A stretch of 48,570 bases of DNA from an uncultured Succinivibrio sp. Its GTDB lineage: Bacteria > Pseudomonadota > Gammaproteobacteria > Enterobacterales > Succinivibrionaceae. Of the stretch, positions 135-42,398 are shown piece after piece; positions within the stretch are counted from its first letter, which is position 1, and each line of letters begins with the position of its first letter. Both the position numbers and the translations under genes were made by a program. The notes under the pieces were generated by a model, which ran no database searches, was not told the DNA's origin, and saw only the letters and a program-made list of their open reading frames with translations. The stretch covers positions 1-48,570 of the forward strand of contig CACZXZ010000026.1 in NCBI GenBank assembly GCA_902785325.1, in the 5' to 3' direction.

Positions 135-2408
135 ATGGTAGCTATACGTCAAACCCATAATGCTAGCTTTGATTTTGCTAAGTGGGTTGATGAGTTAAAT
201 TTACAAGAAACTCAAAAAGACACCATTCGTAAAACCAATGATTATGTTTTACGTTGTATTCGCAAAAGCGAAGTAGCTGAAGACTTTGTAGATCCTGAAG
301 ATCTAGTAGCTAAATTTAACCATCTCTCCTCAGAGATTGTAGGTATTTTAATGACCTTGAATATGGATTTACCATCCCTTCAAGTGTCTATCCTATACCC
401 AGCTTTTGAAAGTGGCTTTATCAACCTTGAATCAGTAGGCGAAGTATTTGGCGATAAGATTTCTAATCTTTTACTTTCAGTAAAAGATATGGAAGCTATC
501 CGCTCTTTGCAAACCCTAACCTCTGACAATGCTACTGAAGAGCAAGTAGATAGAGTACGTCGTATGCTACTTGCAATGGTAAAAGATGTTAGAGCCGTAG
601 TCATTAAGCTTGCTGAGCGTATTGCTACCATTCGTTTTTCTAAAAATGAAGATCCTCAAACTCGCTACACTATTGCCAAAGAGATTTCTAATATTTATGC
701 ACCTTTAGCTAACCGCTTAGGTATTGGTCAGTTAAAGTGGGAGCTTGAAGATCTTGCCTTTAAGTTTTTACATCATGACGAGTATGCCCAGATTGCCAAA
801 GATTTAGGGGAAAGACGTCTTGATAGAGAAAACTATATCAATGAGTTTGTTCAAAACTTAGAGCAAACTCTACGCAAAGAAGGTATCAATGCTACCGTCT
901 ATGGTAGACCTAAGCATATTTATAGTATTTACAAAAAGATGCAAAAAAAGCATCTTAAGTTCAATCAACTCTTTGATATTAGAGCAGTACGTGTTGTTGT
1001 AGATACCATTGAAGAGTGTTATGCAGCTTTAGGCATTATCCATACTCATTATGAGCATATTGCTAAAGAATTTGATGACTATATTGCCAATCCAAAACCA
1101 AATGGTTACCAATCTATCCATACTGTAGTTTATGGAAAAGAAAGAAAGGTTGTAGAAGTGCAGATAAGAACACAAGCTATGCATCAATTAGCAGAGCTTG
1201 GTGTTGCAGCTCACTGGAAATATAAAGAAGGCAATGGTCAAAGCCAAGGTGTTGAAGAGCGTATTAACTGGTTACGTAAACTATTATCGTGGCGTGACGA
1301 TATGGTTGAGTCAGGCTCTTTACAAGAGGAATTTAAAAAGCAAGTCTTTGAAAATCGTGTGTACGTATTTACTCCAAATGGTGAAGTAATCGATTTACCA
1401 AATGGAGCAACTCCCCTAGACTTTGCTTATCAAGTACACACTATGATTGGTCACCGTTGTATTGGCGCAAAAGTAGATGGTCGTATTGTGCCATATACTT
1501 ATAAACTAAAGACTGGTGAACAAGTTGAAATTATCACTCAAAAAAATCCTAATCCTTCCCGTGATTGGTTAAAAGCTGACAACGGCTTTTTATTTACTCA
1601 AAAAGCTCGTAATAAGGTTCAGTCTTGGTTTAGAAAGGTTGATTTTGATAAGAACAAGGAAGCTGGCGCTGAAATAGTTGAAAAGGAAGTTGAAAAACTT
1701 GGCTTAAACTTAAATAAAGAGCAAATTACAGCGGTCTTAAAAGAAAAAGTATCTAAATTCAACTTAAGAACTGTCGACGATGTTTTAGCTAATATCGGAT
1801 CTTGTGATATAGGCACTAATGCTATTGTAAGTATTTTCAGTGACTATGTTGAAAAGAGCAATAAGGACAATCAGGATAATCAAGATATCTTAGAGGATAT
1901 CTTAAATAGAAAACCTACTGTTACAGAGCAGATCTTAAAGAAAACCGAGCATAAAAGTGGCATCGTAGTTGAAGGTGTGGGCGATCTGATGACCCATATG
2001 GCCAAGTGCTGTCACCCAATTCCAGGCGATGAGATTGTAGGCTTCGTAACTCAAGGTAGGGGTATTTCTGTTCACAGAAAAGATTGTGAAAAATTACGTC
2101 GCATGATGGCTTTGTACCCTGAGCGCGTGGTAAGTGCTACTTGGGGCGACAATATCCTCGCAACTGGTACTGGCTACACGGTAACCTTACGTGTAGTAGG
2201 CTCTGATTACCCTGGCTTTTTGCGCGATGTAACTACAGTAATTGCCAATGAAAAGATGAATGTCTTAGGGGTTAAATCTCATACAGATCCTTTAAAAGAT
2301 TTGTCTTTAATTGATATTGATTTGCTAGTTATCAGCATTCCAACTTTGCAAAGGGTAATTGCTAAATTAAACGATCTACCAAAAGTTACTTCAGCACAAA
2401 GAATTTAG
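135..2408 (+). CDS. relA: RelA, GTP pyrophosphokinase ((p)ppGpp synthetase I)
   Basis: Ribosome-associated alarmone synthetase of the stringent response; makes (p)ppGpp from ATP and GTP/GDP when uncharged tRNA sits in the A site. The 757 residues match the usual RelA length. The N-terminal hydrolase-like domain lacks an HD pair (LYPAFESG, near residue 90), so this is the synthetase-only RelA type and not SpoT. The synthetase motif EFDDYIANPKPNGYQSIH lies near residues 312-329, with the acidic E-x-D-D signature of RelA. A TGS domain follows (about 406-467), then the conserved Cys motif MAKCCHPIPGDEI (about 620-632) and a C-terminal ACT/RRM domain. The start MVAIRQ matches the E. coli start MVAVRS. 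The next gene is pyrG; the mazG and rlmD seen near relA in enterobacteria are not in the window. Confidence 0.97.
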   Translation: MVAIRQTHNASFDFAKWVDELNLQETQKDTIRKTNDYVLRCIRKSEVAEDFVDPEDLVAKFNHLSSEIVGILMTLNMDLPSLQVSILYPAFESGFINLESVGEVFGDKISNLLLSVKDMEAIRSLQTLTSDNATEEQVDRVRRMLLAMVKDVRAVVIKLAERIATIRFSKNEDPQTRYTIAKEISNIYAPLANRLGIGQLKWELEDLAFKFLHHDEYAQIAKDLGERRLDRENYINEFVQNLEQTLRKEGINATVYGRPKHIYSIYKKMQKKHLKFNQLFDIRAVRVVVDTIEECYAALGIIHTHYEHIAKEFDDYIANPKPNGYQSIHTVVYGKERKVVEVQIRTQAMHQLAELGVAAHWKYKEGNGQSQGVEERINWLRKLLSWRDDMVESGSLQEEFKKQVFENRVYVFTPNGEVIDLPNGATPLDFAYQVHTMIGHRCIGAKVDGRIVPYTYKLKTGEQVEIITQKNPNPSRDWLKADNGFLFTQKARNKVQSWFRKVDFDKNKEAGAEIVEKEVEKLGLNLNKEQITAVLKEKVSKFNLRTVDDVLANIGSCDIGTNAIVSIFSDYVEKSNKDNQDNQDILEDILNRKPTVTEQILKKTEHKSGIVVEGVGDLMTHMAKCCHPIPGDEIVGFVTQGRGISVHRKDCEKLRRMMALYPERVVSATWGDNILATGTGYTVTLRVVGSDYPGFLRDVTTVIANEKMNVLGVKSHTDPLKDLSLIDIDLLVISIPTLQRVIAKLNDLPKVTSAQRI

Positions 2409-2464
2409 TTAAAAATCAATAAGCTACAACGATATTAGAGATTGTTTATTTTTTGAAAGAATAA

Positions 2465-4156
<1,692 letters not shown>

Positions 4157-28612: not shown

Positions 28613-31600
28613 ATGTCAAAACTAGAGTTTGAAATTGAAAACAACCTCATTGAGGTTCTTTCAACAGAGCAGTCTCAATGGACCTTTAGAGATGATTTAC
28701 GTACTGAAGCGCAGTTATGGGATAACTTTAAGAAAATCTTAGAATCTCATAATCAGAGCAAACTAAACGGCATTCCATTAAGCCAATCTGAATTTGAGCG
28801 TGTAAAGAATGCTTTAAACTTTTCTTCTTTCTATGATGCTGCTGTTGCTTTATCTGGAGAAAATGGCGTTTTTAGAATCACTATTCAACGTGATATTGAT
28901 AATGTAAAAGAAGGTGAAGATCCTAATATTCAATTGATGGTAATTGATAATACTAATATCGGTGGTGGTTCTTCTGTATACGAAATCATTCACCAATATC
29001 AAGCCTTTATTGAAGATGAAGATTCTGCTGATATAACTCAACGTAACAGACGATTTGATGTATCTTTATTGATAAATGGTCTTCCTTTAATTCATATTGA
29101 GCTTAAGACTGGCAAGCATCCATATATGGAAGCCTTCAACCAAATTCAAAAGTACATTAAAGAAGGCAAATTTAAAGGTATCTACTCAATGGTCCAAATG
29201 TTCGTGGTATCAAACGAATATGAAACCAAGTACTACGCAGCAGCTCAAGACGATGAGCTAAATCCAAAATTTATCTCAGGCTGGGTTGATACCAAAAATA
29301 AAATGGTAAACGGCTACTTAGACTTTGCCAGAACCGTCTTAAAGATCCCAATGGCTCACAAGATGGTATCTCAATACTCTATTATTGATAATGATAAGAA
29401 GCGTATTAACATCTTAAGACCATATCAAATTCACGCTATTGAAGAAATACGTAAGGCTTATGCTGATAATCGTTCTGGCTATATCTGGCATACCACTGGC
29501 TCTGGTAAAACCATGACCTCTTTCAAAGCTGCGCGTAATTTATTACTAGATAAAGCCAATATCAGCAAGACAATCTTCTTGATTGATAGAACTGATTTGG
29601 ATGAGCAGACCAGTGACGATTTTAGATCATATGCTTCTAACGATGTAATTGATGTAAATTCAACTGAGAACACTGATGAATTGCTAAAGAGATTACTTAA
29701 CTCAAAAAGAGAGTTGATAGTAACAACAATTCAAAAGCTTCAAACTCTAATCAGAAGATTTGATCCTCAATCACCTTATGCTATTCCTGAAAGCAAAAAG
29801 AATAAGTTAGAGCAACTAAGATTAGCATTCGTTGTAGATGAGTGTCATAGAGCTGTTACTCCTAAAACAAAGCGCATTATAGAAAATGCATTCAGAAATA
29901 CTCTATGGTATGGCTTTACAGGCACTCCAAGATTTGCTGATAAAGTAGGTCTTGATGGTAATCCTTATGAGGTTCACGGTGATTATGTAAGAACTACTGA
30001 TGGCTTATATGGACCTTTAGGATTAACTGCGGATAAAGAAGCAGGAGTTAAATCTTGTCTTCACAGATATACCATCAAAGAAGCAATTCACGACCAGGCT
30101 GTTTTAGGCTTTAAAGTTGAGCATCTTGGTCCTAAAAATGTAAAAGATAAAGATGGCGAAGACTTTAATGAAGATCTAAGTCAGTATGATACAGAACAAC
30201 ATCGCTTAGAAGTTCTTAATGTAATTCTAAACAAATGTAACCAGAATTGGGGTATAGCCAACGGTCCTGATAAAACCTATAGCGCTATTCTTACTGTACC
30301 AAGCATTCACGATGCAATTTTGTACTATAGATTGCTAAAAAAGGTTAAAGATGGCAAAACAAGCATTCAGATAAATGAAGAAATCAAAAAGGTTTTACCA
30401 GACTTCCCTAAGTTTGCGATTACCTTCTCTTTATCTGAAGGCAATGATGATGTAGCTACCAACGATACAGATACTATCAACGAAAATGAAGCTGGTATTA
30501 AAGAAGCTCTTTTAGACTATAACAGTTGGTTCCATACTGACTTTAAGAGAGCTGAAATTACATCTTACAATTCAGATCTTAATAAGAGGTTAAAGCGCAA
30601 AAATGAGCAATATCAAATTCGTGACAATCAATTAGATCTTGTGATTGTTGTTAAGAGATTGCTGACAGGTTTCGATGCTCCTTGCATGTCTATGCTATTT
30701 GTCGATAAAGCACCAATGCCATTGCACGATCTAATCCAAGCATTCTCAAGAACTAATCGTCTTTTTGATGAAAGAAAGAAATTTGGCAATATCTATACCT
30801 TCAGATCACCTTTCTTATTCGAGAAGAAAGTAAAAGAAGCTTTAATCCTATTCTCAGGAGAGCAACTATCAGGCGATAAGCCTTATGAACTTCCAACCTG
30901 GGAACAAGCAGTAGCAGACTTTAAAGCTAAATTAGCACTTATAAGAACTATTGCACCAACACCTGACGATGTACCTTCTTTAGCTAAAGAAGAAAAGAAG
31001 TTATTTGTAAAAGCCTTCCAAAAGTACGATGCAAGTAAATATCAGCTAACAGGCTTTAGCAATTTCTGTGAACATACTTTAGATGACTTCGGTATATCAG
31101 AAGAAGAAAATGCAAAATACTATGCAATGTATCTTAATGCTAAAGAAGAAATTAAAGATGGTGGTGATGATAACGGAAACGGTAATGGTGATGATCCAGT
31201 CGATCCTCCGATTGATCCTGATCAAGAACTTGTATCTTTTGGCTCCTTTACTATCAACTATAGTTATATTATTAAACTTATTCAGGAACTATGCTCTAAC
31301 GATAATGAAGAGTTTAGAAAGCAACTCATGAAGCAAATTGGAGACTATATCGAAGAGTTAAGTGCAAGAACTCCAAAGATTGGTCAGTTGCTTAATGACT
31401 TATGGTTAAAAATTAAAGCAGATCCTGAAAAGTACAAGCAGGAGAAAATCTCAGCTCTGTTTGAGAATATGAAGAAAGCTGCTATTCAAAAGCTAATAGA
31501 AGATTTTTGCGCTAAATGGTACTTAGATGATCCTAAAGCAATGAAGACCATTTACTACTCTTCATGTGATTATAAAGGTGATGATGTTATTCCTAATCTT

Positions 31601-31741
31601 AACGAAATTCAGGACAACTGTAATTTTAAGAGGTACAAGGAAGAAGCTGAAAAGCCTTTGTTGAAGTTTGCGTTCTATAACAAGCTTAAAGAAGCTTTAA
31701 TTGACACTTTCAAAAATGATATTTTACCATTAAAGGAATAA
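28613..31741 (+). CDS. hsdR: Type I restriction endonuclease subunit HsdR
   Basis: Motor and nuclease subunit, 1042 residues (EcoR124 HsdR is of similar size). The nuclease motif LPLIHIELKTGK lies near residues 157-168 (PD-(D/E)xK type). The helicase has Walker A HTTGSGKTMT (about 293-302), DECHR (about 409-413), FTGTPRF, and the late motif QAFSRTNRLF. A Gly/Asn/Asp/Pro linker near residues 848-870 (DDNGNGNGDDPVDPPIDPD) joins the C-terminal helical region. AGGA precedes the ATG. Type I enzymes cut unmodified DNA far from the recognition site and protect against phage. Confidence 0.96.
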   Translation: MSKLEFEIENNLIEVLSTEQSQWTFRDDLRTEAQLWDNFKKILESHNQSKLNGIPLSQSEFERVKNALNFSSFYDAAVALSGENGVFRITIQRDIDNVKEGEDPNIQLMVIDNTNIGGGSSVYEIIHQYQAFIEDEDSADITQRNRRFDVSLLINGLPLIHIELKTGKHPYMEAFNQIQKYIKEGKFKGIYSMVQMFVVSNEYETKYYAAAQDDELNPKFISGWVDTKNKMVNGYLDFARTVLKIPMAHKMVSQYSIIDNDKKRINILRPYQIHAIEEIRKAYADNRSGYIWHTTGSGKTMTSFKAARNLLLDKANISKTIFLIDRTDLDEQTSDDFRSYASNDVIDVNSTENTDELLKRLLNSKRELIVTTIQKLQTLIRRFDPQSPYAIPESKKNKLEQLRLAFVVDECHRAVTPKTKRIIENAFRNTLWYGFTGTPRFADKVGLDGNPYEVHGDYVRTTDGLYGPLGLTADKEAGVKSCLHRYTIKEAIHDQAVLGFKVEHLGPKNVKDKDGEDFNEDLSQYDTEQHRLEVLNVILNKCNQNWGIANGPDKTYSAILTVPSIHDAILYYRLLKKVKDGKTSIQINEEIKKVLPDFPKFAITFSLSEGNDDVATNDTDTINENEAGIKEALLDYNSWFHTDFKRAEITSYNSDLNKRLKRKNEQYQIRDNQLDLVIVVKRLLTGFDAPCMSMLFVDKAPMPLHDLIQAFSRTNRLFDERKKFGNIYTFRSPFLFEKKVKEALILFSGEQLSGDKPYELPTWEQAVADFKAKLALIRTIAPTPDDVPSLAKEEKKLFVKAFQKYDASKYQLTGFSNFCEHTLDDFGISEEENAKYYAMYLNAKEEIKDGGDDNGNGNGDDPVDPPIDPDQELVSFGSFTINYSYIIKLIQELCSNDNEEFRKQLMKQIGDYIEELSARTPKIGQLLNDLWLKIKADPEKYKQEKISALFENMKKAAIQKLIEDFCAKWYLDDPKAMKTIYYSSCDYKGDDVIPNLNEIQDNCNFKRYKEEAEKPLLKFAFYNKLKEALIDTFKNDILPLKE

Positions 31742-31805: not shown

Positions 31806-32595
31806 ATGAACAAAAAACTATTTGGAGTGAGTTTTGCTCAAAAGAAATACGATTTAGCTTTAAAGTATTGCACACCTGCAGCTGAACAAGGTGATCCTGA
31901 AGCTCAATATTATTTAGGTCTAATGTATGAAAAAGGCTTCGGTCTAAAACAAGATTATACTGAAGCGATGAATTGGTATCTCAAAGCAGCAGAGCAAGAT
32001 AATAAAGATGCTCTTTGTAGCTTAGCTAACATGTACTTAGAAGGCGAAGGTGTAAAGCAAGATTATACTGAAGCCAGAAATTATTTTATAAAAGCGGCCA
32101 ACCTTGGAGATGCTTCTGCTCAATATAATTTAGGAGTCATGTATTCTAGTGGCGACGGTACTAAAAAAGATTATATAGAAGCTAAAAATTGGTTCTTAAA
32201 AGCTGCAGAACAAGGACAAGCTAAAGCTCAATTTAATTTAGGCGTTTTGTATTTTAACGGACAAGGGGTAAAGCAAGATTATTTTAAAGCAGTTGAGTGG
32301 CATCAAAAAGCTGCAGAACAAGGATATGCGGATGCACAGTATAATTTAGCTAAAATTTATTATCTAGGCAAAGGTGTAAAGCAAGATTTTGTGAATGCAA
32401 AAAAAATGGTTCGAAAAGGCAGCTAAGCAAGGTCATGCTGAAGCACAATGTTGTTTAGCAGGCTTATATATTCAAGGTCTTGGTGTTAAACAAGATATAA
32501 TGAATGCAAAAAAATGGTTCGAAAAAGCAGCTAAGCAAGGTCATGCTGAGGCAAAAGAATTTTTAGACACTTTAAATTCTATCTTAAAAGGTTAG
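31806..32595 (+). pseudogene. Sel1-repeat protein 1, frameshifted at an A8 tract
   Basis: Sel1-like (TPR-related) repeat protein with five repeats in the first frame, ending at 32426; a sixth repeat and the C-terminus continue in the +1 frame to 32595. The break is at eight A's (32399-32406). The same sentence 108 bp later has seven A's and reads NAKKWFEKAAKQGHAEA, so removing one A restores a single ~262-residue protein. There is no signal peptide (MNKKLFGVSFAQKKYD), unlike its two neighbours. It may be a broken gene, a phase-variable gene, or one rescued by slippage at the A-run. Confidence 0.75.
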
Positions 32596-32621
32596 ACTTC
32601 AAAAAACATTTGGAAAATGCA

Positions 32622-33566
32622 ATGAAATTAAATAAATTTTCAAAGCTAGCAGAATTCTTATCTGTAGCAATTATTAGTTCAAGTTTATTAACCACAGGCT
32701 GTTCACGATTTAATAACCAACCTGAAGAAAAAACAGTTGAAGATAAAAGTAAAGAAGAAGATAGTTTAATTGCCAATATGGATAGTGCAACTGTATTTGA
32801 ACGTTGCAAATTATATTATTCTTCAGAAAACTATAATGATGCTTTTAAGTATTGTAAAAAATCAGCAGAAGAAGGAATTAAAGAAGCTCAATTTAATTTA
32901 GGCGTTATGTACGATAACGGCCAAGGTGTAAAGCAAGATTACTTTAAAGCAGTTGAGTGGTATCAAAAAGCAGCTGAACAAGGATATGCTCTTGCACAAT
33001 GTAATTTAGGCTATATGTACGATAGAGGCCAAGGTGTAAAACAAGATTACTTTAAAGCAGTTGAGTGGTATCAAAAAGCAGCTGAACAAGGAAATGCTCT
33101 TGCACAATGTAATTTAGGCAATATGTACTATGGTGGCCAAGGTGTAAAACAAGATTACTTTAAAGCAGTTGAGTGGTGGCAAAAAGCAGCTGAACAAGGA
33201 AATGCAAATGCTCAAAATAATTTAGGCTATATGTACGATAGAGCCCAAGGTGTAAAACAAGATTACTTTAAAGCAGTTGAGTGGTATCAAAAAGCTGCTG
33301 AGCAAGGATATGCTTCTGCTCAAAGTAATTTAGGTGTTATGTACCAATATGGCCAAGGTGTAAAACAAGATTACTTTAAAGCAGTTGAGTGGTATCAAAA
33401 AGCAGCTGAACAAGGAAATGCTCTTGCTCAATATAATTTAGGTCTTATGTACCATAACGGCCAAGGGGTAAGACAAAATTATTCAAAAGCAAAAGAATAT
33501 TTTGGATTAGCTTGTGATAATAAATATCAAAAAGGTTGTGATATGTATAGAAAGCTTAATCAATAG
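32622..33566 (+). CDS. Sel1-repeat lipoprotein 2
   Basis: About 314 residues. Signal peptide MKLNKFSKLAEFLSVAIISS with lipobox LTTG-Cys27, then a charged linker and six 36-residue Sel1 repeats of the form AQ-NLG-MY-GQGVKQDYFKAVEW, ending in LACDNKYQKGCDMYRKLNQ. Sel1 proteins scaffold protein complexes at membranes or the envelope; this one has no further domain to define a role. The start at 32622 is preferred over an ATG 12 nt upstream because the lipoprotein signal and GGAAA spacing fit. Repeat units are almost identical at the DNA level, so copy number is likely to vary by recombination. Confidence 0.88.
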   Translation: MKLNKFSKLAEFLSVAIISSSLLTTGCSRFNNQPEEKTVEDKSKEEDSLIANMDSATVFERCKLYYSSENYNDAFKYCKKSAEEGIKEAQFNLGVMYDNGQGVKQDYFKAVEWYQKAAEQGYALAQCNLGYMYDRGQGVKQDYFKAVEWYQKAAEQGNALAQCNLGNMYYGGQGVKQDYFKAVEWWQKAAEQGNANAQNNLGYMYDRAQGVKQDYFKAVEWYQKAAEQGYASAQSNLGVMYQYGQGVKQDYFKAVEWYQKAAEQGNALAQYNLGLMYHNGQGVRQNYSKAKEYFGLACDNKYQKGCDMYRKLNQ

Positions 33567-33592
33567 TCACTAAATCATGTCACTTCTTGTAC

Positions 33593-33628
33593 ACTTCTAA
33601 GAACGATATTTTACCGTTGAAAGAATAA
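33593..33628 (+). pseudogene. Scar of an hsdR 3' end
   Basis: Reads T-S-KNDILPLKE-stop, the same as the last residues of HsdR (TFKNDILPLKE-stop at 31706-31741), with several synonymous changes (CCA/CCG, TTA/TTG, AAG/AAA). The homology carries on past the stop (AGT-AAAGTAA) into a matching hairpin. It marks a tandem duplication or the loss of a second restriction system. Confidence 0.8.
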
Positions 33629-33643
33629 GTTAAAGTAAAGTGG

Positions 33644-33669
33644 TATGAGTGAGCTTAGATTCACTCATA
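33644..33669 (+). terminator. Hairpin after the hsdR scar
   Basis: TATGAGTGA/TCACTCATA, a 9-bp perfect stem with an 8-nt loop that keeps GCTTAG from its homologue after hsdR. The stem sequence differs from the homologue on both arms in a compensating way. Confidence 0.6.
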
Positions 33670-33709
33670 TTTGGAATAAACCAAGTTTATCAATAATAGG
33701 AATTAAACC

Positions 33710-34762
33710 ATGAAGTTATATAAATTTTCAAAGCTAGCAGGATTCTTATCTGTAGCAATTATTGGTTCTAGTTTATTAACAATTGGATGTTCACGATTTA
33801 ATAACCAACCTGAAGAGAAAACAATTGAAGATAAAAGCAAAGAAGACAATAGTTTAATTGCCAATATGGATAGTGCAACTGTATTTGAACGTTGCAACTT
33901 ATATTATTCTTCAGAAAACTATACAGAGGCTTTTAAGTGTTTTCAAAAAGCAGCTGAGCAAGACGATGATCTTGCTCAATTATATTTAGGCTTTATGTAC
34001 GAAAACGGCCAAGGGATAAAGCAAGATTACTTTAAAGCAGTTGAGTGGTACCAAAAAGCAGCAGAACAAGGAGATGCACCTGCTCAATATTGTTTAGGCT
34101 TTATGTACCAATATGGCCAAGGAGTAAAACAAGATTACATCAAAGCGGTTGAGTGGTATCAAAAAGCTGCTGAACAAGGAAATGCTCTTGCTCAATATAA
34201 TTTAGGTGTTATGTACCAATATGGCAAAGGTGTAAAACAAGATTACTTTAAAGCAGTTGAGTGGTATCAAAAAGCTGCTGAGCAAGGAGAAGCTTCTGCT
34301 CAAATTAATTTAGGCAATATGTACTATGGTGGCCAAGGTGTAAAACAAGATTACTTTAAAGCAGTTGAGTGGTATCAAAAAGCAGCTGAGCAAGACGATG
34401 CTCTTGCTCAATATAATTTAGGTCTTATGCACTATAACGGTCAAGGGGTAAAGCAAGACTACTTTAAAGCAGTTGAGTGGTATCAAAAAGCTGCTGAGCA
34501 AGGATATGCTTCTGCTCAAATTAATTTAGGTGTTATGTACCAATATGGCAAAGGTGTAAAGCAAGATTACTTTAAAGCAGTTGAGTGGTATCAAAAAGCA
34601 GCTGAACAAGGTTATGCTTCTGCTCAATATAATTTAGGAGTTATGTACGCTTTCGGCCAAGGTGTAAAGCAAGATTACCTTAAAGCAAAAGAGTATTTTG
34701 GTTTAGCTTGCGATAATAAATATCAAGCTGGTTGTGATATGTATAGAAAGCTTAATCAATAG
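33710..34762 (+). CDS. Sel1-repeat lipoprotein 3
   Basis: 350 residues, a close paralogue of the preceding gene: signal peptide MKLYKFSKLAGFLSVAIIGS with lipobox LTIG-Cys27, the same linker FNNQPEEKTIEDKSKE, seven Sel1 repeats, and the same tail LACDNKYQAGCDMYRKLNQ. AGGA precedes the ATG. Start, linker, tail and the first ~40 bp of 3' flank match gene 2 at the DNA level, so the pair arose by recent duplication followed by repeat shuffling. Role unknown; envelope location is inferred from the lipobox. Confidence 0.88.
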   Translation: MKLYKFSKLAGFLSVAIIGSSLLTIGCSRFNNQPEEKTIEDKSKEDNSLIANMDSATVFERCNLYYSSENYTEAFKCFQKAAEQDDDLAQLYLGFMYENGQGIKQDYFKAVEWYQKAAEQGDAPAQYCLGFMYQYGQGVKQDYIKAVEWYQKAAEQGNALAQYNLGVMYQYGKGVKQDYFKAVEWYQKAAEQGEASAQINLGNMYYGGQGVKQDYFKAVEWYQKAAEQDDALAQYNLGLMHYNGQGVKQDYFKAVEWYQKAAEQGYASAQINLGVMYQYGKGVKQDYFKAVEWYQKAAEQGYASAQYNLGVMYAFGQGVKQDYLKAKEYFGLACDNKYQAGCDMYRKLNQ

Positions 34763-35785: not shown

Positions 35786-36334
35786 TTAGTTATCTACGTC
35801 TGTATTAAATTGATTTAAGATAACCCATGCACAAGGGGTTTTACCTGCCTCAACTTTTCCTGTAGTACTTACGACTCTAGCAATATTAGCTGAACTGTTT
35901 ATCACAATCATTGAGGTTGCAGTGGACTCAAGGTTCTCATTTGCAATCTGTGGATTGAAGGTAATGATAGGTGTTCCAACGTCTACCTCATCACCTACAT
36001 TAAGATCTTTAGTAAAACCATCACCTTTGTAAGTATTAGTGCCAACACCGTAGGTAATATAAATTTCAATACCTGTTTTATGGCGAATCGCAAAAGCGGT
36101 TTTGGATGGCAAAATGCGTGTGATAACACCCTTGCAAGGAGCTAGGATTTGACTTGAACGAGGGATAAAGGCTACGCCGTCACCTACTAGTTTTTCAGAA
36201 ATCACAAGATCCGGTACTTGCTCAAGGGGTAATAAGGTACCACTTACAGGAGCTATAAGCTCTAAATCAGATTCTGAAATGGCTTCAGTTTTAGGATCTT
36301 CTTTTTTATGTTTAAAAAACGAAAATAAGCTCAT
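35786..36334 (-). CDS. crr: IIA(Glc)-like PTS protein lacking both active-site histidines
   Basis: 182 residues, aligning along its length with E. coli IIA(Glc): IAPVSGTLLPLEQVPDLVISEKLVGDGVAF at the start, APCKGVITRI in the middle, KGDGFTKDL later. Phosphorylation site His90 (VHFGI in E. coli) is Thr94 (ITYGV), and the neighbouring catalytic His75 (NHAF) is Thr79 (KTAF). It therefore should not accept phosphate in the normal way and may act as a fixed regulatory form. The N-terminal MSLFSFFKHKK resembles the amphipathic membrane helix of the family. It follows the EI-like gene by 7 bp. The frame is intact, and size and fold are kept. Confidence 0.85.
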   Translation of the reverse strand: MSLFSFFKHKKEDPKTEAISESDLELIAPVSGTLLPLEQVPDLVISEKLVGDGVAFIPRSSQILAPCKGVITRILPSKTAFAIRHKTGIEIYITYGVGTNTYKGDGFTKDLNVGDEVDVGTPIITFNPQIANENLESTATSMIVINSSANIARVVSTTGKVEAGKTPCAWVILNQFNTDVDN

Positions 36335-36341
36335 GTTTACC

Positions 36342-37991
36342 TTAGTTTAATTTGTTCATGATGTCTGATAAGACGTTACCAGAATAGGTGTTCATAACGT
36401 CATTATAGAGTACTTCATCAAATTTAGGGTTAAGATCTTTTTCAAGATTAAGTCTCTCAACTTGAGTCTTAACTTTCTTGATGTTGTAAGTTCCCACCAC
36501 AAGATAAGTAACCCCAAGTTTATAAAAGAAAGGTAGTAACTCTGTTCTACTTGCAAATCTACCTGCAATACCTAAAGTTACATTAGTGTCATGGGCAGCT
36601 TTAGCTGCCATAACAATCATCTTAGCTAAAACAGGTGTAAAGGCATTGTCAGGAGGACATGGAGCTGATGCGTACTCAGCAAGAGAGCTTGTACCTATGA
36701 TCATCATCGAGCAGTCTTTAGCAATAGCAGGTGCTAGTAACACCGCTGCAGGAGTTTCAATCATAAAGGAGATATCAAGCTTGCCAAATGGGATCTTTTG
36801 CTCTGTTAATTCCTTTTGACACTCTTTTGCAAGTGAAAGCAAATAATCCTTTTCACTTATCTTGGTGACAAGTGGAAATACAATAGTGATCTTCTGCCCT
36901 GAGCTTGCTCTTAAAAGGGCTCTGATCTCTTTTTTCAAAAGCTCTGTACCTACACAAGCACCATAACCTTCAAGTGGGCCTGTATCGTCAGTTCTTACAG
37001 TAAATAAAGGCTTTTTGTCATCAGCAAAGTCAAAGGTTCTAGCTGTGATAGGTGCGTTTTTGGAGATATTTGAAAATAGTGGGTAAAACTTTTCAATCAT
37101 CTCTTCTTCTGTAGGCTCTGTAGTAGAGCTTAAGAATAAGAACTCAGAACGTAGTAGACCTAAACCGTGAGTTGCAATAAAGCCATTACAATCCTGATTG
37201 TTAGCACCAACAGCGCAGCCTATGGTGATATTTAATAAAGACTCGTCATTGATATTGTCACAGAAGAGATCTTGCTTACCCATTAAGCTTTGGCAAATGT
37301 CATCACTAGGATCAACAATGACTGCAGCACTGTTAGCATCTAATAAAATCTTGGTGCCAGATTTGATGGTAGTTGCATCAAATACACTGTAGATAGCAGG
37401 AATACCTAGTTCTCGTAATACTACACTTAAGTGACCTGAGTCTCTGCCACCTTCTAAAACCACACCTTTGATGTGGTTAGTATCTAAAGATAGCAATTGT
37501 GCAGGGGATAAATCCTTAGTAATTAAAATGACATCTTTAGTAAGTTTTGGTAATTGAGTAATTTCACCTGATTCATGACCTAGAGTATGAATAAACTCAT
37601 TCATTAAAGAGGTTAATTCTGATTTGTCAGCTTGTAAATCAGTATTGTGCTTATAAAACTCCTCAAGATTTGACAGTAAGACAGAGCGTGCTGCCATTGA
37701 AGCAGAGCATCCACTTTGAATAAGTTTTAATACGCTGTTTTTATTGTCCTGTGAGGTTAAAAAGCCAGCTGCAGCACCTAGTAAATCTCTTACACAGTCT
37801 TTGTTAGGATTTACAATTTGTCTTAATTTTTGTGCAAACAAACTAGACTTTTTTAAGTAGGTATCACTTTCAATATCAGGATCGTAAGTAAATAATTCGT
37901 CTTGAGTGTATTCTTTGTTTTCTTTGGCAATAACCAAAGCAGGAGCTGAACTGATACCTGCGCTAATGCTTAATCCTGATAAGGTATACAT
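36342..37991 (-). CDS. ptsI: PTS enzyme I-like protein with a degenerate active site
   Basis: 549 residues (E. coli EI 575). The swivel His region reads EGGRDSGHLSVV: His187 lines up with E. coli His189, but one residue is inserted before it. In the PEP-binding barrel Arg281, Arg318 and Glu412 are kept (LGLLRSEF, ARTFDF, MIETPAA), while GTNDL is GTSSL (Asn454 and Asp455 lost), the GWRAIR block carrying Arg358 is changed to GYGACVG, the Arg465 block is CPPDN, and the catalytic Cys502 block GMCGELAGD is GIAGRFASR (Cys replaced by Ala476). Catalysis as an EI seems unlikely. It sits between cysZ and the IIA-like gene, with no HPr gene. Confidence 0.83.
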   Translation of the reverse strand: MYTLSGLSISAGISSAPALVIAKENKEYTQDELFTYDPDIESDTYLKKSSLFAQKLRQIVNPNKDCVRDLLGAAAGFLTSQDNKNSVLKLIQSGCSASMAARSVLLSNLEEFYKHNTDLQADKSELTSLMNEFIHTLGHESGEITQLPKLTKDVILITKDLSPAQLLSLDTNHIKGVVLEGGRDSGHLSVVLRELGIPAIYSVFDATTIKSGTKILLDANSAAVIVDPSDDICQSLMGKQDLFCDNINDESLLNITIGCAVGANNQDCNGFIATHGLGLLRSEFLFLSSTTEPTEEEMIEKFYPLFSNISKNAPITARTFDFADDKKPLFTVRTDDTGPLEGYGACVGTELLKKEIRALLRASSGQKITIVFPLVTKISEKDYLLSLAKECQKELTEQKIPFGKLDISFMIETPAAVLLAPAIAKDCSMMIIGTSSLAEYASAPCPPDNAFTPVLAKMIVMAAKAAHDTNVTLGIAGRFASRTELLPFFYKLGVTYLVVGTYNIKKVKTQVERLNLEKDLNPKFDEVLYNDVMNTYSGNVLSDIMNKLN

Positions 37992-37996
37992 ATAAG

Positions 37997-38770
37997 TTAC
38001 TCCTCAATGATCTCAACTTGGCGTGCTTGTTTTAACAATAAGTAGTATTTTGTGCCAGCACAAACAGCTGCAGGAGGGATCAATAAATTTACAATTGGAA
38101 TTAGTAAAGCAATGGATACTGTAGCTCCTAAAGTAAAGGAGGATACATAGTTTTGCTTTAAATCCTGTTGCATATCTTTAAAAGAGACATGGTGATTGTC
38201 ATAAGCATAATCGGCATATTGCAAGCAACCCATCCAAGAGGTTAGAGCAAACCAAAAGAAAGGACTTACAAAATTTAAAACTGGTACTAAAGAAATTAGT
38301 AAACACAACAAAGCTAATGGTAAAAAGAATAACTGCTTTCTACCTTCACGTAACAGAATACGAGGTATGTCTTTTATAAGATCGGTTACACTCATATCAA
38401 TACCTTGAGTGTTGTTTAAATAAAGTTCTACCTTATCAGCTAATAGCCCATAGAAAGGGGAAGCAATAATAGTGGCTACTGTTGAGAAAAAATAACAACC
38501 TGCTATTAGCAAGGCTATTACCAACAAAGCACTTAAGATATAGGCTACAAATACTAACCAATCAGGGAAGGTATTGAAAATATCAAAAATAAGCTCTTTG
38601 ATATAGTAGAACAAGACATAACCAAGAACTGAGAATAAAACAAGGTTTATTAAAATAGGAATTAACACAAAAGCTCTAAATTCTTTTTTTAAAGCTAAAG
38701 ATATTCCATCAAAAATTAAGGAAATAGCAGTTACAAGGCTAATCTTTTGAGTTGTTTGATTGATGTTCAT
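37997..38770 (-). CDS. cysZ: CysZ-family sulfate transporter
   Basis: Inner-membrane protein of the CysZ/EI24 family; E. coli CysZ imports sulfate for cysteine synthesis. 257 residues with about four long hydrophobic segments (near 35-55, 75-100, 150-175, 215-240), including the conserved FYGLLADKVE and FWFALTSWMGCLQYADYAYDNHHVSF. Its position back to back with zipA-ligA is conserved in E. coli, where cysK then ptsH-ptsI-crr follow; here cysK and ptsH are missing and cysZ runs straight into the EI-like gene with 5 bp between. Confidence 0.88.
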   Translation of the reverse strand: MNINQTTQKISLVTAISLIFDGISLALKKEFRAFVLIPILINLVLFSVLGYVLFYYIKELIFDIFNTFPDWLVFVAYILSALLVIALLIAGCYFFSTVATIIASPFYGLLADKVELYLNNTQGIDMSVTDLIKDIPRILLREGRKQLFFLPLALLCLLISLVPVLNFVSPFFWFALTSWMGCLQYADYAYDNHHVSFKDMQQDLKQNYVSSFTLGATVSIALLIPIVNLLIPPAAVCAGTKYYLLLKQARQVEIIEE

Positions 38771-39576
38771 ACAAAGTTTAAATATTTCTTTTAAGTGATG
38801 TTAATGACTAATCTTAAGCAATCTAATATTAACATCTCAGAAGACTTAAAAGCGTAATATTTGAGAACTTTTTACAATATGTTTGTTAATAGAGCAAAGT
38901 AAGATTTTCTCTAGACAGAAGTGAAATCTAAAGAGTCTTAACGTCTTGAATAGCTTTCACTTTTTGTTCTAAAATTCTCAACACATCGATTTTATATCAT
39001 CTACATAATCAAGCCATATCAAGGATTTTAACGTGGATTTAAAAGAGTTACAAAAACAGTTTGATGAGATATCAAAGCAGGTTAAGAGAGAAACAAAATC
39101 TCAACCTGCTTTAGCTCTTTTATTCACTAGCCTTATAAGTCTGTTCAAAGTCCTCTTTGAAATGTTAAATGCTCAGACCAAAACAATTGATTAACTGAAT
39201 AATACTATTGAAAGCTTGCAGCAAAAGTTTGGTAATAAAACAGTTGATAGCAAGAGAGCTAACAACGAAAACATCAACGGTCGAGGCTGTAACTAACTAC
39301 CTTTATTATAAGGGATCATTTTTCTATATGCACAGTATTTAAAGCTTGCAGTAAACTGAAAAACATTAAGAATGCCTAATACCTGTATCAGGACTTAATT
39401 TGATAAACATGGAGCCTAATCTGCGTAATCTTTTTTGAGAGCTTTTGTGCTTAAAATATCTGCCATTACACGATTATTTGTACTGCCATCATAAATGCTT
39501 TAAATTCGTTTAAGTATTTAAAAAAAGTTCGTGTAAAATAATAAGTTAATACTAAAGAATAATGGAGATAAAGCTC
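38771..39576. other. cysZ-zipA intergenic region (about 800 bp)
   Basis: 38771-39032 is A+T-rich and probably holds the divergent promoters, but no clear -35/-10 pair stands out. 39033-39296 is a transposase-like remnant. 39297-39560 shows no convincing gene; a short minus-strand frame near 39400-39500 (containing YDGSTNNRVMADIL) may be another degraded coding fragment, not assigned. Confidence 0.5.
39033..39296 (+). pseudogene. Degraded N-terminal fragment of a transposase-like protein
   Basis: Starting with GTG, reads DLKELQKQFDEISKQVKRE, then ALLFTSLISLFKVLFEMLNAQTKTID, a TAA (39192-39194) where a CAA is likely, then LNNTIESLQQKFGNKTVDSKRANNENINGRG and a second stop at 39294-39296. A coiled-coil start followed by a Lys/Asn-rich segment resembles N-termini of IS66-type transposases. 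Nothing of a catalytic domain follows. Family call is tentative. Confidence 0.45.

Positions 39577-42398
<2,822 letters not shown>

Follow-up and report, generated by a model that had tools for sequence, protein, structure and literature searches.

A phosphotransferase locus of the Succinivibrionaceae apparently converted into a module that no longer transfers phosphate

Introduction

One branch of the phosphotransferase system (PTS), PTS-Ntr (PtsP-NPr-PtsN), serves in regulation. In Escherichia coli K-12, ligA-zipA diverges from cysZ-cysK-ptsH-ptsI-crr, a run that includes the genes for HPr, Enzyme I (EI) and IIAGlc; this order, which the original prediction for the DNA described here had given, is the one that we read in NC_000913.3. 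For the sulfate channel CysZ, a 2018 eLife article (PMC5967866) names GLR(R) as the motif that binds sulfate, and two core motifs, ExVE and QYxDYPxDNHK. Here we describe the counterpart of this locus in an uncultured Succinivibrio sp., where cysZ is followed by genes for an Enzyme I-like protein (EIL) and a IIAGlc-like protein (IIAL). It lies on contig CACZXZ010000026.1 (C26) of assembly GCA_902785325.1 (G000; 2.28 Mb, 97% complete), and the window that we analysed is the 48,570 bases of that contig. The comparisons below give good support to the view that a PTS locus has here been converted into a non-phosphotransfer module.

Results

The features of the locus, with their positions in the window, are as follows:

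37997-38770, minus strand: CysZ homologue, first gene of the operon (NCBIfam NF003433, Pfam PF07264)
36342-37991, minus strand: EIL, the Enzyme I-like protein, 549 aa (Pfam, residue alignment)
35786-36334, minus strand: IIAL, the IIAGlc-like protein, 182 aa (Pfam PTS_EIIA_1, fold)
39562-40299, plus strand: zipA, divergent synteny anchor (Pfam ZipA_C)
40299-42398, plus strand: ligA, divergent synteny anchor (Pfam DNA_ligase_aden)

These coordinates bear out the gene order, the divergence from zipA-ligA and the intergenic gaps of the original prediction, 5 bp between cysZ and EIL and 7 bp between EIL and IIAL. The same prediction had cysK and HPr gone. Neither gene lies among the trio at the window locus, but loss of HPr from the organism is ruled out by an HPr with H15 on contig C16 of the same genome.

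Both PTS proteins had also been called degenerate at their phosphotransfer sites, which holds for IIAL throughout and for EIL in part. Aligned with EI (residue numbers follow E. coli EI), the EIL of the window carries R358G, N454S, D455S, R465P, C502A and E504R, with Y122 and R126 also gone, but keeps H189, R296, R332, D335, E431 and P433. In EI, D455 is a Mg ligand and C502 the acid/base residue. The changes are fixed or nearly so among the EILs that cover them (two short pieces miss these regions, and one more misses position 189): S454-S455 is present in 39 of 39, R465 is gone from 39 of 39 (Pro in 30), position 502 is Ala in 38 of 39, Val in one and Cys in none, R504 is found in 36 of 39, and R358G in 38 of 38. 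The phospho-histidine H189 is retained in 38/38 EILs and R296 and R332 in 39/39, and N454, D455, R465 and C502 are all retained in 38/38 comparison EIs and 2/2 PtsP. Judged by its residues, EIL is therefore dead at the phosphoenolpyruvate (PEP), Mg and acid-base sites, with the phospho-histidine kept.

EIL scores 191.7 bits against the Enzyme I family TIGR01417, below the cut-off of 341.7; its fold is that of an EI. Pfam finds the PEP-binding domain, which in EI is the dimerisation domain as well, in 29/29 EILs and the N-terminal EI domain in 23/29. An AlphaFold model of EIL built on its own-family alignment (pLDDT 81.7, pTM 0.59) ranks EI structures first in Foldseek (2wqd, 2hwg and 2kx9, E < 1e-28), with a whole-chain TM of 0.53-0.59, at which domain placement is unsure, and with TM up to 0.77 of the target for C-terminal domain structures.

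In the window IIAL has Thr at both active-site histidines of IIAGlc (H75 and H90). Across 40 IIALs, H90 is absent from all and H75 from 39, with G018 the one that keeps it. The protein is well above the cut-off of Pfam PTS_EIIA_1 (111.3 bits, cut-off 27.2), just under that of TIGR00830 (96.5 against 97.5) and under that of NF006962 (136.6 against 212). Its AlphaFold model, again from an own-family alignment (pLDDT 85.1, pTM 0.80), reaches TM 0.92 to the IIAGlc structures 1f3g and 3our in Foldseek, and the sequence retains a VPDxVISEK-type loop and an FFSxLF-like N-terminus. The N-termini of 26 related IIALs have a mean hydrophobic (amphipathic) moment of 0.41 versus 0.29 for shuffled sequences (standard deviation of the mean 0.03); for comparison, E. 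coli Crr gives 0.47 and the intact IIA of the source genome 0.33.

With 44% identity as the lower limit, EIL was found in 39 of the 56 genomes of the Succinivibrionaceae and in 8 of 14 genera: in 17 of the 19 genomes of the source genus, in 22/22 of seven other genera, and in none of the remaining six genera. An order-wide search of 394 genomes gave scores of at least 776 bits for 23 of 33 family members; none of the 361 genomes from other families of the order reached 776 bits, the next score being 317. A contig search with the EIL alignment (a single-protein query returned no match) identified Succinivibrio dextrinosolvens, S. faecicola, Succinatimonas hippei and Anaerobiospirillum succiniciproducens as named carriers, and among the best 80 contig matches were 30 loci with at least 42% identity, followed by matches of at most 30%. 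S. dextrinosolvens and Succinatimonas hippei are succinate producers of rumen and gut.

The arrangement was followed on 40 stretches from 38 EIL genomes. IIAL comes directly after EIL in 38/38 loci, and CysZ precedes EIL on 36 of the 40 stretches; three of the rest (G042 and a single piece from each of G039 and G044) stop at a contig end, and the fourth is G002. ZipA is present on 31 of 40; in G012, G018, G019 and G022 the sequence extends for kilobases upstream of cysZ and still does not include it. Outside genus g2, and with start codons chosen by script, the cysZ-EIL gap is at most 19 bp in 27 of 28 loci including the window (92 bp in G035), and the EIL-IIAL gap is 0-93 bp in 28 of 29 including the window (463 bp in G037); within g2 the latter spans 12-413 bp. 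No fourth same-strand operon gene was found, as the downstream neighbours common to more than 8 genomes all lie on the opposite strand. The recurrence of this trio, changes included, in eight genera makes its conservation more than chance, and the trio is far from the peculiarity of one strain that the original prediction had named as a sign against itself.

Of the 378 pairs formed by 28 fetched five-gene loci other than that of the window, the 10 with LigA identity above 80% were used for dN/dS. In these pairs, for which the values are rough because synonymous sites are near or above saturation in most, EIL gave 0.014-0.10 versus 0.029-0.138 for LigA and lay below LigA in 8 of 10; the ranges were 0-0.19 for IIAL, 0.019-0.079 for CysZ and 0.054-0.27 for ZipA. 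EIL and IIAL thus appear to be under purifying selection, and nothing suggests that selection has been relaxed. With the pair present in 39 of 56 family genomes, its altered sites fixed and its dN/dS low, the proposal that phosphorelay residues were lost together while the protein pair was kept is upheld.

A tree of 56 EI sequences indicates where EIL came from. The EILs form one clade (SH-aLRT 100) on a stem of 3.08 changes per column, sister (SH-aLRT 99) to EIs of genera g7, g9 and g11, here called CAN, and the grouping holds (99) after four long or odd rows are dropped. The active-type EIs (ACT) of EIL genomes form a separate clade (SH-aLRT 99). That EIL arose from the active-type EI with which it shares a genome was rejected weakly, with long branches involved (p-AU 0.020), and identity with PtsP was rejected by the lack of a GAF domain in EIL and by the test that grouped EIL with PtsP (p-AU 0.005). 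Long-branch attraction may contribute to the placement of EIL.

Four CAN-type loci lie near zipA-ligA-cysZ (L083, L084, L085 and, in G055, L129), so that the idea of a locus rewired in place also fared well: the EIs to which EIL is sister are less altered, and four genomes have them near this very site. Between cysZ and EI, L083-L085 have about 2-3 kb that hold other genes; L129 has its IIA-EI-HPr block inverted, and there EI, which is outside the tree, and ligA are both broken. All seven CAN EIs in the alignment keep N454, D455, R465, C502 and E504; they lack T168 and R358, and the residue that follows H189 is Leu or Met. One active-type EI (G022) likewise has Leu at 168 and 190. An HPr-like gene remains in two of eight CAN loci searched (L084:10190-10450 and L129:10044-10325), beside EI and IIA and with H15 changed to V or D, and both genomes carry another HPr with H15 elsewhere. 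This suggests a graded series, from canonical, through a local HPr that is dead or gone, to a dead EI and IIA.

The third member of the trio is altered as well. The window CysZ scores 236 bits against NF003433 (cut-off 140), with E-F-R-A at the GLR(R) position and the core motif QYADYAYDNHH. Among 37 CysZ proteins of EIL loci, the Gly of GLR is replaced in all (E 24, Q 8, P 3, D 1, K 1), Cys follows in 34 and the second Arg is gone from 37/37; the core residues Q182, D185, D189 and N190 are retained in 37/37. In the four CAN-locus CysZ proteins that we examined it is instead the core motif that is altered. CysZ was found in 38 of 39 EIL genomes, the exception being G042, whose contig ends 145 bp past EIL, and in 39 of 40 genomes with IIAL. 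No EIL genome (0/39) has a PF01507 (CysD/CysH) match of at least 140 bits, versus 9 of 17 other family genomes, and six EIL genomes, the source genome among them, have weaker or longer matches. CysZ with an altered sulfate site therefore persists where assimilatory sulfate reduction seems to be absent, although the association tracks the family tree and so gives no independent test. The original prediction had suggested metabolite sensing, or control of sulfate or sugar uptake; because strong CysD/CysH matches are lacking in EIL genomes, it looks unlikely that the trio controls the uptake of sulfate for making cysteine.

Elsewhere the source genome encodes what is probably an active PTS, as judged from its residues. 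In addition to the HPr on C16, it has an EI on C39 with all catalytic residues checked (TIGR01417, 540.6 bits versus 341.7), a PtsP on C59 that has a GAF domain and whose catalytic residues are intact, and on C9 both a IIA with the two histidines (T73 = Q), beside genes named by eye as those of an ABC transporter, and a fructose-type IIABC above three curated cut-offs. TIGR01427 detects the fructose EIIC (212.4 bits versus 157.55), although a PF02378 EIIC search gave no match in this genome; mannose-type EIID was found in 0/56 family genomes. The original prediction had counted an intact set elsewhere, together with relaxed selection at the locus, as evidence against it: intact EI, HPr and IIA are present, relaxed selection was not seen, and the claim stands.

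Several other PTS-related genes were observed along the way. On C39 (L002:158-1480 and 1492-3159), 11 bp separate the intact EI from a gene on the same strand that has SBD_N/NBD_C domains, presumably a kinase of the four-carbon acid sugar type, and C6 encodes an MFS_2 sugar permease that carries a fructose-type EIIA domain at its C-terminus (L266:4392-6254). EIIA_2 matches in frames of similar length are widespread in the family. On C10 a third IIAGlc-like protein (L037:1423-1965, minus strand) adjoins an IscR-like gene, so named by eye, and has N in place of both active-site histidines; the five rows examined (the source genome twice, G031, G036 and G043) form one clade apart from IIAL, which makes this a second case of a His-less IIA, independent of the first. 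In genera g12 and g13, seven genomes (L131-L137, G048-G054) have a crr-like IIA with 47-57% identity to that of E. coli, in G054 with H75 changed to N, and no ptsI-length EI or small HPr is listed for them; theirs is a possible orphan IIAGlc.

As for the surroundings of the trio, zipA and cysZ are 791 bp apart in the window, and that gap (38771-39561) contains an apparent decayed transposase stretch, IS66-like by eye. Also named by eye are a type I restriction HsdR-like protein of 1042 aa (28613-31741) and, after it, three Sel1-like repeat proteins (31806-34762). Downstream of the trio in the family, the opposite-strand gene clusters found in 26 and 23 genomes are, again by eye, NAD(P) transhydrogenase subunits.

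Discussion

It is well supported that, before eight genera of the Succinivibrionaceae diverged, an ancestral cysZ-(ptsH)-ptsI-crr locus became a module of three proteins, one that would no longer pass phosphate from PEP. As to what the module does, the account that we tentatively favour is that His-less IIAL acts on CysZ or another transporter and that EIL is a ligand sensor or scaffold. IIAL would be locked in the form of dephospho-IIAGlc and, by analogy, would act as that protein does in inducer exclusion, with its N-terminus and conserved docking loop binding a transporter in the membrane, most probably the CysZ of the same operon, and perhaps with IIAL itself tethered to the membrane. EIL, a probable dimer, may bind a PEP-like or oxyanion ligand without turnover in a pocket that keeps R296 and R332 on the phosphate side, and could in this way set whether IIAL and CysZ are free or occupied, so that ligand occupancy would take the place of phosphorylation in control. 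The more specific proposal of a phosphorylation-free, ligand-gated regulator, in which a pseudo-Enzyme I senses a metabolite in the former PEP pocket, the His-less IIA relays the signal at the membrane and a CysZ of altered selectivity is the target, is doubtful.

A number of observations weigh against the account that we favour. Ligand binding, the EIL-IIAL and IIAL-CysZ contacts and membrane binding are all things that we infer, and the account offers no reason for the invariance of H189. The cysZ-EIL gap widens to 99-568 bp in genus g2 (9/9 loci), and in G002 the 1.76 kb upstream of EIL contain no CysZ, which is near the end of another contig. G043 has cysZ-IIAL without EIL; this one genome hints that CysZ-IIAL is the core of the module, and it is also a module that lacks the supposed sensor. 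For the N-terminus of the window IIAL the moment, at 0.27, does not exceed that of shuffled sequences, and the AlphaFold model has a low pLDDT there. In CysZ the first Arg of the sulfate motif is kept in 36 of 37 EIL loci, so the protein may still move sulfate. Nor do evolutionary rates help: among 26 loci plus the window, from which two near-duplicates had been dropped beforehand, rate covariation was 0.37 for EIL-IIAL and 0.45 for IIAL-CysZ, versus 0.39 and 0.51 for the controls EIL-LigA and CysZ-LigA. With control pairs equally high, rate covariation cannot pick a partner among EIL, IIAL and CysZ; against a background of ZipA plus LigA, which leaves no control pairs, the values were 0.46 for EIL-IIAL, 0.50 for IIAL-CysZ and 0.31 for EIL-CysZ.

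Among the alternatives, it is unlikely, but less so than the others, that the pair is a decoy, with EIL heterodimerising with the active-type EI or titrating its partners and IIAL competing for permeases, which would damp sugar uptake. Residue-intact EI, HPr, IIA and IIABC in the same genome would supply the targets, and the dimerisation domain is recognised in every EIL surveyed. EIL and the active-type EI nevertheless fall into distant, separate clades, which makes heterodimers doubtful, and the tie to CysZ is left without explanation.

The persistence of H189, R296 and R332, along with a mostly recognisable N-terminal EI domain, could instead mean that phosphate flows backwards, from an HPr-like carrier to H189, and that phosphorylated EIL is the signal which IIAL reads. 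The docking surface speaks against this. Y122 and R126, the HPr contacts of EI, are gone from 38/38 EILs and 7/7 CAN EIs and present in 31/31 EIs of the OUT and ACT groups; T190 is absent from 38/38 EILs and S188 from 30/38; and the mean net charge of segment 64-86 is -0.6 in EIL against -7.2 in OUT, -4.2 in ACT and -2.6 in CAN, though the two PtsP have only -1.5. Classical HPr binding by EIL is thus doubtful on sequence grounds. Both contacts are, however, also absent from the two PtsP with intact catalytic residues (one R126 = gap), so that their loss is compatible with an HPr-like carrier that docks differently. This slightly raised our estimate for the phosphate acceptor and slightly lowered that for a transporter-binding IIAL with a sensor EIL; even so, we regard the acceptor as quite unlikely.

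That the remodelled pocket (G358, S454, S455, A502 and R504) performs a new reaction, with IIAL as a partner subunit, is very unlikely: its altered residues are fixed or nearly so within the fold of a PEP-utilising enzyme, but D455 and C502 are gone with no evident replacement, and no common same-strand pathway gene was found downstream. Finally, a degenerate relic kept by chance beside essential genes is barely credible and was rejected, for although the intact PTS elsewhere makes an old copy redundant, G043 lacks EIL and G046 (88% complete, 440 contigs) has no detected CysZ or EIL, nor a IIA match at this site, the trio has long open frames in eight genera, family-wide fixed substitutions and low dN/dS.

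An EI and a IIA that are both dead and have both become fixed across eight genera, with the neighbouring channel altered, amount to a natural experiment on those functions of EI and IIAGlc that need no phosphate. Sister genera hold intermediates, in which the local HPr is dead or gone and the EI catalytic residues are present, so the order of the conversion can be traced, and the named carrier species make the function of the module testable. If the more specific proposal of a ligand-gated regulator is correct, it would be a conserved, clade-defining case in which allostery took over from phosphorelay in both relay proteins at the same time. None of the titles and abstract beginnings in our open-access PMC listings describes such a module.

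The described systems each resemble the module in part. In PTS-Ntr, PtsP combines a GAF domain with intact catalytic residues, of which EIL has neither, and the source genome encodes PtsP separately. The window CysZ passes the family cut-off and keeps the QYxDYxxDN core of the sulfate channel, but in EIL loci the protein departs from the GLR motif, as given in PMC5967866, by the uniform loss of its Gly and by the Cys that usually follows. Dephospho-IIAGlc bound to transporters and enzymes (PDB 4jbw, 1gla and 3our) is matched by the fold of IIAL and by its VPDxVISEK-type loop; unlike IIAGlc, IIAL has no H90, which makes the known phospho-switch impossible. The E. coli cysZ-cysK-ptsHI-crr locus shares with this one the zipA-ligA neighbours, the protein folds and the EI-IIA order, and differs from it in having HPr and cysK, an EI with R358, N454, D455, R465, C502 and E504, a IIA with H75 and H90, and a CysZ with an unaltered GLR motif.

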